DNA from: Bacteroidales bacterium
Lineage (GTDB): Bacteria; Bacteroidota; Bacteroidia; Bacteroidales; P3
Direction: 5' to 3'
Assembly: GCA_017645585.1 (NCBI GenBank)
Contig: JAGCOF010000021.1
Location: 1-38,236 of the forward strand
DNA length: 38,236 bases
Part shown: in pieces, positions 28,148-30,248 of the stretch
Position numbering within the stretch: position 1 is the stretch's first letter
How the letters are laid out: each line of letters opens with the position of its first letter
Notes under the pieces: model-generated
Told to the model about the DNA's origin: nothing
The model's database searches: none
What the model saw: only the letters and a program-made list of their open reading frames with translations
Position numbers and translations under genes: made by a program

Positions 28148-29293
28148 TCATCTCACCACCACCACGCGGCGCGCCGGATGGTTTCCGACCTTGATCAGGT
28201 AGGTGCCTGCGGCGGGCACATCGAACCGCAGCGCCGAGTAGTCGTCCTGCCGCGTGGCCAGCAGACGCCCCACAGCGTCATACAGCCACACGGTGTTGCC
28301 CTCTGCACCCTCCACCACAATCTGCCCGTTGTTGATATACACCTTGGCGTCCAGCGCCACCACGCCCTCTATACCCTCGGTGCTGTCAGGGGTAAAGTAG
28401 GCGACGATAGATATATCTTCTATCACAGTGACGGTGAGCGGATTGTCGGTGACAATGTTTTGGTAGCCAGGGGTAATGCTCCAACCCTCGAAGTGGTAGC
28501 CCTCGTTAGCGGTGGCAAGCAGCTCGGCTTGAGGATTGTTGCAGGTGGGTTCGCTGATAACCTCGATGCTACCATGTTCCTCGTTTGATGCCGTAACATC
28601 AAGAACATATCCCAGCTCCTCGATGAATGTGGAAAAATGCTGACTCCATTCCTGTACTGACGTGTAAGAGGCCGTGCTACCGCATGGGATGTATATTTTG
28701 GCTGTGTCGGGAATGTCCCACAGGGCACGGTAGCCGACACTGGGTGCTACATTGTTAAGCAAATGCATTTCCATCAGTGCCTGGCAAAAAAGGAATGCAT
28801 CTGAGAAGATGTTCGTGACGCATCGGCCCAAGGTGATTTGTGGCAGCGAAATACAACCCTTGAATGCCATATTTGGAATATACGTTATGCTGTCCGGCAG
28901 ATGGACAGAGACAAGCGAAGAGCAGTAAGCGAAAGAGTATTCTCCCATGTATCTCACACTGTTCGGCACATAAATTGATGTCAGCGTCTTGCAGTTGAAG
29001 AAAGCGCCAATCATAAAGTCATGGGTCTTAAGCTCGGTTACCGTGTAGGTGGTCCCGCAATAGGACACCGTCTCAGGGATGATTAGGTCGCCGGAGACAT
29101 AGTTGCTGTCGCTGCTTCTCGTATAAGGACTAACCACGCTGACCTGGGTTGAGTCGTAGATTTTGTAGTAGAGAGTCTGCCCGCTCGGAGCGGCGGCGGA
29201 AAAGTCGTAGGCATAATACTGTCCATAAACATTTGTCGTTCCCATCAGCACTGCGAAGAGTGCTGCGATGATTTTAGTGCTGTGTTGTTTCAT
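28148..29293 (-). CDS. BspA-like leucine-rich-repeat surface protein with T9SS-type C-terminus
   Basis: 381 residues. A signal peptide (1-24, ending TTNVYG) is followed by leucine-rich LRR_5/BspA-type repeats at about 65-205 (CKTLTSIYVPNSVRYMGEYSF, CSSLVSVHLPDSITYIPNMAF). An InlB B-repeat-like module spans about 230-303 (GYHFEGWSITPGYQN), and a C-terminal T9SS-like sorting domain spans about 315-381 (VWLYDAVGRLLATRQ, AAGTYLIKVG, ARRVVVVR). It is probably a surface-exposed binding protein. The strong structured element at 29399-29561 lies about 105 bases ahead of the start and may control it. No TAnnTTTG box was found directly upstream. Confidence 0.87.
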   Translation of the reverse strand: MKQHSTKIIAALFAVLMGTTNVYGQYYAYDFSAAAPSGQTLYYKIYDSTQVSVVSPYTRSSDSNYVSGDLIIPETVSYCGTTYTVTELKTHDFMIGAFFNCKTLTSIYVPNSVRYMGEYSFAYCSSLVSVHLPDSITYIPNMAFKGCISLPQITLGRCVTNIFSDAFLFCQALMEMHLLNNVAPSVGYRALWDIPDTAKIYIPCGSTASYTSVQEWSQHFSTFIEELGYVLDVTASNEEHGSIEVISEPTCNNPQAELLATANEGYHFEGWSITPGYQNIVTDNPLTVTVIEDISIVAYFTPDSTEGIEGVVALDAKVYINNGQIVVEGAEGNTVWLYDAVGRLLATRQDDYSALRFDVPAAGTYLIKVGNHPARRVVVVR

Positions 29294-29609
29294 TGTATTG
29301 TTGTTTTTGTTGGATTAAACAAAAATGCCCTATTATAATACGCATTTCTCGGGTCAAATCTTACAGGCATGAATATTTTTTTAGCGAACCTTATAGATAA
29401 AAAAGGCGTTGAATTATTCTTTTGTTGCTCCTTATTGGCTGCAAGGCTCTGGACTGCCTATCCTATCAATAAGTTGCGAATAATTCACGCCCTGGCGTGA
29501 ACTACCCCCGAGCTTATTCTCATAGGAAGAAGAATTGTCCAGATTCTTGCAGCGAGAATAATGGGCGGTTAGCTCAATATGTTTTTTGTCTTTTTTACAT
29601 TGCTGTTTT
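29294..29609. other. 316-base spacer holding a structured RNA candidate
   Basis: No gene is seen here. The middle (29399-29561) is dominated by paired stems described separately. The 29294-29395 part is AT-rich leader to the BspA-like gene. 29562-29609 holds GGGCGGTTAGCTCA, which looks like the first 14 bases of a tRNA, and two T runs. Confidence 0.6.
29399..29561 (-). ncRNA. Candidate structured RNA with kissing loops and terminator-like stem
   Basis: P1: 29405-29419 pairs with 29478-29491 over 14 bp with one bulged T. P2: CTTATTG (29431-29437) pairs with CAATAAG (29467-29473) and encloses AGGC/GCCT (29444-29447/29456-29459) with an 8-nt loop. P3: TTATTCTC (29514-29521) pairs with GAGAATAA (29554-29561) and encloses AAGAAT/ATTCTT with a 7-nt loop. 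The two loops are complementary over 6 nt (CTGGAC 29449-29454 with GTCCAG 29537-29542). On the minus strand P1 is followed at once by six T (29404-29399). A rival hairpin (29484-29491 with 29494-29501) uses half of P1. The strand is inferred. It could be a leader of the BspA-like gene or the 3' end of the DUF4160-DUF2442 transcript. Confidence 0.5.
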
Positions 29610-29864
29610 TTAGTTAATAATACCTTTGTATAGTTGTTCTATCGGAAAGATTAAGTCCCAATTACGGCCCCAAACAATATTGCCACCGTCGAGAGTGAAG
29701 GTGCTGAACTTCTTGGGGTCAAGGTATTTGTTGTACTGCGGATGCGGATGCCGACGGATGTAGTCGCCGACATCAACCGTGCTGTCGGTACCGTCGCTGA
29801 ACACCAGCCGCACCTTCAGCCCGCCCAGGTCGTATGCATCTGTTATATATAGTCTTTCGCTCAT
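29610..29864 (-). CDS. DUF2442 domain protein
   Basis: 84 residues from the ATG at 29864; the frame continues upstream to 29924 but that part overlaps the DUF4160 gene. The ATGA overlap with the upstream gene's stop fixes the start. The sequence DAYDLGGLKVRLVFSDGTDSTVDVGDYI followed by KKFSTFTLDGGNIVWGRNWDLIFPIEQLY fits the small DUF2442 family. Its function is unknown; members are commonly paired with DUF4160, as here, and the pair has been proposed to act as a toxin-antitoxin-like module. Confidence 0.85.
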   Translation of the reverse strand: MSERLYITDAYDLGGLKVRLVFSDGTDSTVDVGDYIRRHPHPQYNKYLDPKKFSTFTLDGGNIVWGRNWDLIFPIEQLYKGIIN

Positions 29865-30163
29865 ATTTTCGTCTTGATATTGGTGCTTCTCACCTGTTGC
29901 TTCATCACAAAGAAACGCACCCACTTGTCGATGATATTTTTGCTGTATTTGCGAATAAACGCTTCTGCCACACGTTTGTCCTTGGCCGTCAAAGGAGGCT
30001 CTCCATGCTTCTCCCGTATATTGATGTTGCTCAACTCACCATTCATCATAATCAACTCAAAAATACTCTCACAATCACCGTGTTTCACATGCACATGTAT
30101 CGGCTCGTGTTCGTTGGAGTAGAAGTAGAAGATAAAACCGAAGTATTCGTATATTTTTGGCAT
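29861..30163 (-). CDS. DUF4160 domain protein
   Basis: 100 residues from the ATG at 30163; a longer frame to 30217 would run over the promoter box at 30188. The motif YFGFIFYFYSNEHEPIHVHV is the DUF4160 hallmark (E-H-x-P-x-H-x-H), and the C-terminal half (LTAKDKRVAEAFIRKYSKNIIDKWVRFF) is helical. It is the first gene of a two-gene unit with DUF2442. The histidine-rich motif could bind metal, but no activity can be asserted. Confidence 0.87.
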   Translation of the reverse strand: MPKIYEYFGFIFYFYSNEHEPIHVHVKHGDCESIFELIMMNGELSNINIREKHGEPPLTAKDKRVAEAFIRKYSKNIIDKWVRFFVMKQQVRSTNIKTKI

Positions 30164-30187
30164 TTTATTTATTGTTGTTTCCGACTG

Positions 30188-30195
30188 CAAAGATA
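30188..30195 (-). promoter_or_regulatory. -7 promoter box of the DUF4160-DUF2442 pair
   Basis: TATCTTTG on the minus strand, 25 bases before the ATG at 30163. Confidence 0.6.
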
Positions 30196-30248
30196 CAAAG
30201 ATTATTTCATCTGGCAAAATTTATTTCTCCCGCTGTGGTTTCAGTCTC

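Follow-up and report, generated by a model that had tools for sequence, protein, structure and literature searches.

Introduction

Transcription attenuators with alternative terminator and antiterminator folds are known from the trp and his leaders, T-box RNAs and riboswitches. The bar minigene of phage lambda reads AUG AUA UAA. Integron attC sites carry the boxes R' GTTRRRY and R'' RYYYAAC. In Bacteroidota, leader elements are represented in Rfam by DUF805b (RF02914) and DUF805 (RF03081), both of type Cis-reg and clan CL00115. Another minigene, that of axe-txe, is found in the consulted part of PMC8708949. Flavo-1 (RF01705) is described in excerpts of PMC2864571 as a Bacteroidota motif of unknown role, and excerpts of PMC9723704 report its matches in sense and antisense of transcribed regions. 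Finally, PMC8040213 presents palindromic Bacteroidetes candidates with predicted terminators, for example HMP2_4205 and HMP2_1032.

Here, one intergenic element in a 38,236-nt contig of a Bacteroidales bacterium (JAGCOF010000021.1; the whole contig is called the window) was compared with these systems by computational analysis. Its best reading is a new family of putative transcription-attenuating leader RNA ahead of diverse accessory genes.

Results

Position and extent of the element

On the minus strand, positions 29578 to 29399 of the window hold a structured RNA of about 180 nt, which corresponds to positions 1-180 of a covariance model (R1) built from the 36 copies of alignment A2. The window copy, which is itself in the source set of the model, matched R1 with an E-value of 1.2e-37 and scored 182.5 bits on the minus strand against 34.9 bits on the plus strand. 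Therefore, the RNA strand is taken to be the minus strand. The RNA lies between a DUF4160-DUF2442 gene pair and a gene for a BspA-type LRR protein, all encoded on the minus strand. The upstream pair is composed of a DUF4160 gene (29861..30217, Pfam E 3.4e-12) and a DUF2442-like gene (29610..29924, 18.9 bits, below the Pfam cut-off of 23.9). The downstream gene (28148..29293) had been called a BspA-like gene of the T9SS; the LRR assignment was borne out by LRR_5 (E 8.5e-21), and the T9SS tail gave a sub-threshold match (TIGR04183, 16.8 bits against a cut-off of 23).

The original prediction placed the element at 29399..29561. Its parts were found at that place, but the upper limit proved too short because the conserved element extends to about 29600 and includes a start-stop minimal ORF, ATG TAA (29595..29600), located 9 nt past the DUF2442 stop codon. 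Between the terminator and the BspA start, a further 105 nt (29294-29398) hold GCC...GAGAAATGCGTATTATAATAGGGC, which by eye looks like a worn DUF805b and is without an Rfam match.

Two alternative folds

Folding of both strands had been suggested as a check. The minus strand from 29390 to 29570 folded at -61.7 kcal/mol, against -39.3 +/- 4.1 kcal/mol for 200 shuffled sequences (z -5.5, none equal), and the plus strand gave a z-score of -3.5. The minimum-energy fold of the minus strand is one long hairpin with the nested helices P1, P2, P3 and P4 and the apical hairpin P5. Its 5' half is composed of segment (i) CCATTATTCTC (29554..29564), the P1 arm GCTGCAAG (29546..29553), the P2 arm TCTGGAC (29537..29543), the P3 arm TCCTAT (29522..29527), segment (ii) GAGAATAAG (29513..29521) and the 5' arm of P5, the antiterminator hairpin, AGTTCACGCC (29494..29503). 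The 3' half follows with GGGCGTGAATTATTC (29478..29492), which includes the 3' arm of P5, segment (iii) ACTTATT (29468..29474), the P3 arm ATAGGA (29461..29466), the P2 arm GTCCAGA (29448..29454), the P1 arm CTTGCAGC (29438..29445) and segment (iv) AATAAGG (29430..29436). In this nested fold, segment (i) pairs with (iv) and (ii) with (iii), and the complementary 7-mers, TCTGGAC (29543-29537) and GTCCAGA (29454-29448), form a continuous helix.

Separate stems joined by kissing loops had been proposed instead. The minimum-energy structure is a single nested hairpin, but the separate stems are available to the same RNA as a second fold. Here segment (i) pairs with (ii) and (iii) with (iv), which gives two hairpins with CTGGAC in one loop and GTCCAG in the other; GAATAATTCAACGCC (29405..29419) takes up the 3' side of P5, and the two form an intrinsic terminator. 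The long stem named P1 in the original prediction is this terminator: GGGCGTGAATTATTC (29492-29478) with GAATAATTCAACGCC (29419-29405), followed by TTTTTT (29404-29399). The rival hairpin placed at 29484-29501 also exists, as P5, with 29503-29495 paired to 29490-29482 in the present model.

The computed energy of the antiterminated minus the terminated state was -3.8 +/- 6.5 kcal/mol on average. The antiterminated state was the lower one in 102 of 141 copies, and the gap was within 5 kcal/mol in 70 of 141. These calculations, which ignore pseudoknots and kinetics, give two states about as close as would be expected of a switch.

Covariation in related copies

The 36 copies of A2 were aligned with MAFFT, independently of structure and with the near-duplicates L030 and L036 excluded. 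Compensatory changes, the proposed test in homologous spacers, were abundant for both folds. In the nested fold, 91.1% of the cells were paired and 208 cells carried double changes, against 64.3 +/- 7.1 after shuffling and at most 54 with slid partners. The terminator fold gave 62 double-change cells (18.6 +/- 3.5 shuffled, at most 23 slid) and 89.9% paired cells, a value that includes a two-pair closing stem set one column off (47.2% of cells; one pair never forms). The signal extended to 56 diverse copies (A6), where 539 double-change cells were counted for the nested fold against 160.4 shuffled; this alignment was fitted to the nested fold and leans towards it.

At the level of single helices, double changes were seen in all seven pairs of P1, in five of seven pairs of P2 and in all five counted pairs of P3, and the 3' arms of these helices covary accordingly within the nested fold. 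The covariation of P1 and P3 speaks for the nested fold. The 5' arm of P5 was paired in 97.5% of cells. Segment (ii) covaries in both folds and segment (iv) in the terminator fold, where the columns of segment (iii) (118-123/161-166 of A2) were paired in 98.1% of cells. The pair 123/161 is UA in 22 copies and CG in 10, while the rival pair 68/123 is broken in 13 of 36; this favours the inner helix of the terminator fold. Both terminator arms, GGGCGTGAATTATTC and GAATAATTCAACGCC, are backed by covariation and by the arm-pairing scan described below. Segment (i) is the weakest part of both folds (82.0% and 82.5% of cells paired).

P2 was paired in 98.4% of cells and is common to both folds, so its pairing alone is no proof of a kissing contact. 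For the stems that close the local hairpins, the scores were 3.91 against 3.67 +/- 0.10 for partner-swapped controls (swapped maximum 3.96) and 3.59 against 3.65. Since these values are not clearly above the controls, they do not establish the kissing form in preference to the nested helix. The CTGGAC/GTCCAG complementarity is thus present and compatible with the predicted kissing loop, but it is inseparable from the helix of the nested fold.

The terminator in other copies

The 180 raw copies were reduced to 143 distinct cores. A T tract was recognised in 141 of them and in the other two none was recognised. In 140 of the 141 copies with a T tract, the terminator 3' arm paired best over the 3' side of P5. 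The pairing reached at least 10 bp in 136, and in 129 it ranked in the top 2% relative to 50 arm shuffles. The terminator/antiterminator layout noticed in the window therefore recurs in these copies. Two features expected of an attenuator are found: a hairpin with a U tract ahead of a gene (140 of 141, and a co-directional ORF in 132 of 141), and a mutually exclusive antiterminator backed by covariation (both folds in A2, and A6).

The start-stop ORF and the promoter box

The 45 nt ending 10 nt ahead of the core were scanned for minimal ORFs, with copies of at least 118 bits counted as close; one of the 143 copies, having less than 60 nt of upstream sequence, was excluded. An ATG-stop or ATG-NNN-stop was present in 79 of 85 close copies, against 21.0 +/- 3.5 in dinucleotide shuffles (maximum 31 in 300). 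These ORFs have 15 spellings, ATG ATA TAA in five copies among them, and every close copy with any ATG in this region (79 of 79) carries one. The spacer between ATG and the stop triplet was 0 nt in 26 copies and 3 nt in 59, and it was 1, 2, 4 and 5 nt in 13, 2, 14 and 2 copies, respectively; the excess of 0 and 3 nt indicates codons. A 10-nt spacer was also frequent (30 copies), owing to a TAG further along the same conserved stretch. The mini-ORF was found in 20 of 57 more distant copies (6.8 shuffled) and in 7 of 23 class-level copies (2.4 +/- 1.4 in mononucleotide shuffles, maximum 7 in 500). All shuffle comparisons overstate significance because the copies are related. Judged by these sequences, the mini-ORF is strongly conserved near the window and fades with distance, and so is dispensable for the RNA in general. 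The conserved ORF has no or one sense codon and stops before the core, unlike the ORF of a leader-peptide attenuator, which overlaps the switch and abounds in codons for the regulatory amino acid.

The Bacteroidota -7 box, TAnnTTTG, was present upstream of 48 of 85 close copies (4.4 in shuffles), upstream of 31 of the 57 others (3.4 in shuffles) and within 110 nt upstream of 16 of 23 class-level copies (1.7 in shuffles). An exact TAnnTTTG is lacking within 110 nt of the window copy, which may therefore be read from the promoter of DUF4160-DUF2442.

Distribution

A DNA search matched 32 of 99 related genomes, and the only two outside the genus were weak (E 0.004 and 0.008). With R1 at E <= 1e-3, matches were obtained in 109 of the 119 genomes scanned in the genus, in 74 of 101 at family level and in 48 of 198 at order level. 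A second model, R2, was built from 56 diverse copies; at E <= 1e-4 it matched 72 of 295 genomes at class level and 23 of 198 at phylum level, six of the latter matches lying outside the class. The E-values of both models are rough. Up to 11 scored matches occurred in one genome in the genus scan, and the genome of the window itself has at least 11 copies at 11 places. These copy numbers are lower bounds, since 9 to 26 candidates were scored per genome, and a palindromic copy may count once per strand, as the window copy did in the order-level scan. In a specificity check, R1 matched 87 of the 90 stretches returned by an exact pattern scan. The three unmatched stretches (L074, L134 and L153) were the three with titles outside Bacteroidota, namely Enterobacter, Pantoea and Arenibacterium. 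According to their labels, the named matches were mostly uncultured Bacteroidales of ruminant guts, some of them titled Paludibacteraceae. Phage and plasmid records gave no matches, and neither did IMG/VR with two exact patterns.

Neighbouring genes

ORFs were called with a simple, crude caller, and two of the 143 copies were without a downstream ORF. In 132 of the remaining 141, the nearest downstream ORF was co-directional, at a median distance of 66 nt; 21 of these begin -1 to +4 nt from the RNA end and six lie more than 300 nt away. In the other nine it was on the opposite strand. Downstream of the ten other copies in the genome of the window, where the forward strand was scanned, an ORF of at least 60 aa begins 6-94 nt past the RNA. 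The upstream ORF was on the same strand in 82 of 133 copies and on the other in 51. Upstream genes vary widely: one upstream gene can accompany different cargo, and one kind of cargo different upstream genes. The original prediction left a choice between a cis-regulatory RNA and an odd 3' end of the DUF4160-DUF2442 transcript. The co-directional downstream ORFs together with the varying upstream gene favour the former.

The downstream proteins are diverse. Removal of six short or duplicate entries from 125 downstream ORFs left 119 proteins, in which 62 Pfam families were found; LRR_5 occurred in 18, and DNA methylases, a type III restriction subunit and a UvrD helicase occurred singly. Such diversity does not suggest a ligand or pathway. 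A leader of defence genes as a general rule was rejected, because the 25 PADLOC families listed, of 134, had one or two members each among the 119 proteins (cut to 300 aa). By eye, the upstream genes of L001, L023-L025, L033, L038, L098 and L115 are often toxin-antitoxin-like (PIN-, RelE-, HEPN/MNT-like, DUF4160-DUF2442).

A small XRE-like HTH protein adjoins 12 of 143 copies. These are distant copies (L116, L133, L146, L156, L108, L111, L083, L093, L082, L192, L193 and L194) in which an HTH protein of about 70 aa follows the RNA. Its start lies -1 to +1 nt from the RNA end in nine, and five of the 12 have the same membrane-protein-like family upstream. The HTH protein had no match in the genome of the window and was found at E <= 1e-3 in 10 of 41 genomes searched. 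Therefore, it was dropped as a universal regulator. A weak RNA match lay nearby at 3 of 12 XRE-like HTH loci.

Known RNA families

The original prediction recognised no known riboswitch class, and Rfam 15 agrees: no family reached its gathering cut-off over the core in the window or the other loci scanned. With E-values up to 10, only chance-level matches appeared nearby in the window, for example DdR6 (15.3 bits against 90). DUF805b or DUF805 elements lie 3' of the RNA in the same leader in several copies, over the Rfam cut-off in some. A DUF805b text pattern follows the RNA in 22 of 143 copies; in L005, DUF805b occupies 1731-1765 and the RNA core 1503-1683. In the genome of the window, DUF805b had no match at E <= 1e-3. 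Conversely, R2 found the RNA at 16 of 30 DUF805b loci (one with only 28.5 bits; 30 of 42 DUF805b matches were examined) and at 0 of 30 DUF805 loci. Identity of the RNA with DUF805b or DUF805 was rejected on these grounds, the matches lying 3' of the core. Tandem DUF805 or DUF805b elements, some below the Rfam cut-off, were seen in L301 and L303 (G423:C69 and G459:C15), and those of L301 stand before consecutive ORFs in an array that looks like an operon. Downstream of the terminator, a text pattern found another recurrent leader motif, around AACTGAAGAGGCAACAGGATAAAAC, in six of 143 copies (L036, L037, L071, L085, L102 and L182). It was without an Rfam match in the four loci scanned (L036, L182, L037 and L102).

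Discussion

The overall result supports the main idea of the original prediction, a structured terminator/antiterminator RNA, and the element is larger than first noted. Both folds, the terminator, the position before genes and the mini-ORF are supported by comparative data, as are the mutual exclusion of the structures and the strand. From these we infer termination in vivo, its regulatory use, the order of events and a factor that tips the balance. The RNA probably acts in cis by transcription attenuation, with zipped halves in the antiterminated state and separate hairpins plus terminator in the other. Besides covariation and the terminator, this reading draws on the similar computed energies, the co-directional ORFs, the -7 boxes and the DUF805b elements of shared leaders. 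Against it stand the lack of an exact box at the window copy, the diversity of downstream genes, the incomplete pairing of segment (i), the near-palindromic sequence, and the nine nearest ORFs on the opposite strand with the six beyond 300 nt. In this mechanism, polymerase would transcribe the start-stop mini-ORF and next the 5' half, in which segments (i)-(ii) can close a first hairpin. P5 would then form, and the 3' half would emerge. If the halves zip through P1, P2 and P3, possibly with the CTGGAC/GTCCAG loop pair as nucleus, P5 would be locked and polymerase would read through. If instead they remain separate, in two hairpins that perhaps touch by kissing loops only, the 3' arm would capture the 3' side of P5, and the resulting terminator would stop transcription at the U tract, ahead of the downstream gene. 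The balance might be tipped by a ribosome at the start-stop codon, a protein or the speed of polymerase. Ribosome initiation would be a natural candidate because of the start-stop ORF.

A wider version of this mechanism can be put forward tentatively, and taken as a whole it is rather doubtful. The RNA would be a phylum-wide Bacteroidota switch, a portable expression gate ahead of a varying set of accessory genes (for surface LRR proteins, lipoproteins or restriction-modification). At least in Bacteroidales, a ribosome that initiates on AUG-(NNN)-stop and terminates immediately would bias the choice between zipping, kissing loops first, and the terminator. An RNA with covariation this strong that occurs in most sampled genomes of one genus, is scattered over the phylum and falls outside all Rfam families would amount to a large regulon that has gone unrecognised. 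Such a regulon could account for how Bacteroidota gate accessory and surface-protein genes after transcription start. Also, the conserved ORF of one or two codons offers a direct and simple test of start-stop codons as bacterial regulatory sensors.

Other explanations were considered. An orphan metabolite riboswitch, whose nested fold would bind a small molecule that controls the terminator, would agree with a two-state fold on a terminator platform and with the many copies and broad taxonomic range. However, most conserved columns of A2 read as helical, with few in an unpaired pocket, and the target genes are without a common pathway. A riboswitch is unlikely.

The element could also be a stand-alone small RNA that ends at the U tract and works in trans or on proteins; the downstream genes would then be incidental. 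Promoter boxes near about half of the copies and the strong terminator fit such an RNA, as does a region of a distant genome (L302, G423:C1, 1285-2426) with three RNA copies in 1.2 kb and no intervening ORF of at least 60 aa. Nevertheless, the antiterminator would be superfluous for a free RNA, and 132 of 141 nearest ORFs are co-directional (median distance 66 nt), with 21 starts at -1 to +4 nt relative to the RNA end. Thus the small RNA has a poor chance of being correct.

An equally poor chance is given to a DNA element, whether a mobile palindrome or a site of recombination (attC-like or MITE/REP-like), with accessory genes as its cargo. The sequence is close to a palindrome, with both strands of several copies scoring, and some role at the DNA level is conceivable; the varied combinations of upstream gene and cargo point the same way. 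L005 looks recombinant: its 5' half is nearest to L124 (0.94) and its 3' half to L110 and L122 (0.98 and 0.96), with which it shares cargo. The same copy (G022:C33, 1503-1683) pairs only 5/7, 6/7 and 3/5 in P1, P2 and P3; an exchange of cargo by way of the RNA, or a chimeric MAG, could account for it. The T tract, promoter box, mini-ORF and gene orientation are, however, strand-specific. A systematic screen for half-swaps with a stricter threshold (identity difference above 0.3) flagged none of 3655 pairs, and the phage, plasmid and IMG/VR searches described above were negative. Read by eye for the attC boxes, the window holds GTTGAAT on the plus strand (29408-29414), and several A2 copies differ there (for example ATTCCACG and ATTTGCG). 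Six regions were scanned for tandem arrays, with ORFs listed for two, and established no cassette system.

A mere 3' terminator of the upstream DUF4160-DUF2442 operon would suit the 9-nt distance from that operon to the mini-ORF in the window and the same-strand upstream ORF in 82 of 133 copies, but it is most improbable. The upstream neighbour varies widely and lies on the opposite strand in 51 of 133 copies, and plain termination would require neither the mini-ORF nor the long covarying 5' half.

The preferred reading, cis-acting attenuation, can be set against the described systems. DUF805b and DUF805 are likewise Bacteroidota leader elements, but they have only 35 and 68 positions and cover only the part after the terminator of the RNA. 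Flavo-1, as described in the consulted parts of its sources, is a multi-copy Bacteroidota motif like the RNA, and it had no match in the window or the loci scanned. The candidates of PMC8040213, by their description, resemble the RNA in being palindromic Bacteroidetes elements with predicted terminators. In the open-licence literature covered, no description was recognised as this RNA. The minigenes of lambda bar and axe-txe (the latter from the consulted part of PMC8708949) share ORFs of one or two codons with it; unlike them as described there, the mini-ORF here goes with a conserved attenuator-like RNA that is found in many genomes. With the trp and his leaders, T-box RNAs and riboswitches, the RNA shares a 3' arm that would choose between an antiterminator hairpin and an intrinsic terminator. 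It differs from them in that its upstream ORF has no or one sense codon, a leader peptide with regulatory codons is lacking, no Rfam T-box or riboswitch family matches over the core, and the downstream genes are without a common pathway. An attenuator leader is a known kind of regulator; what looks new is the family, its layout as a zipper of two halves and the conservation of a start-stop ORF.
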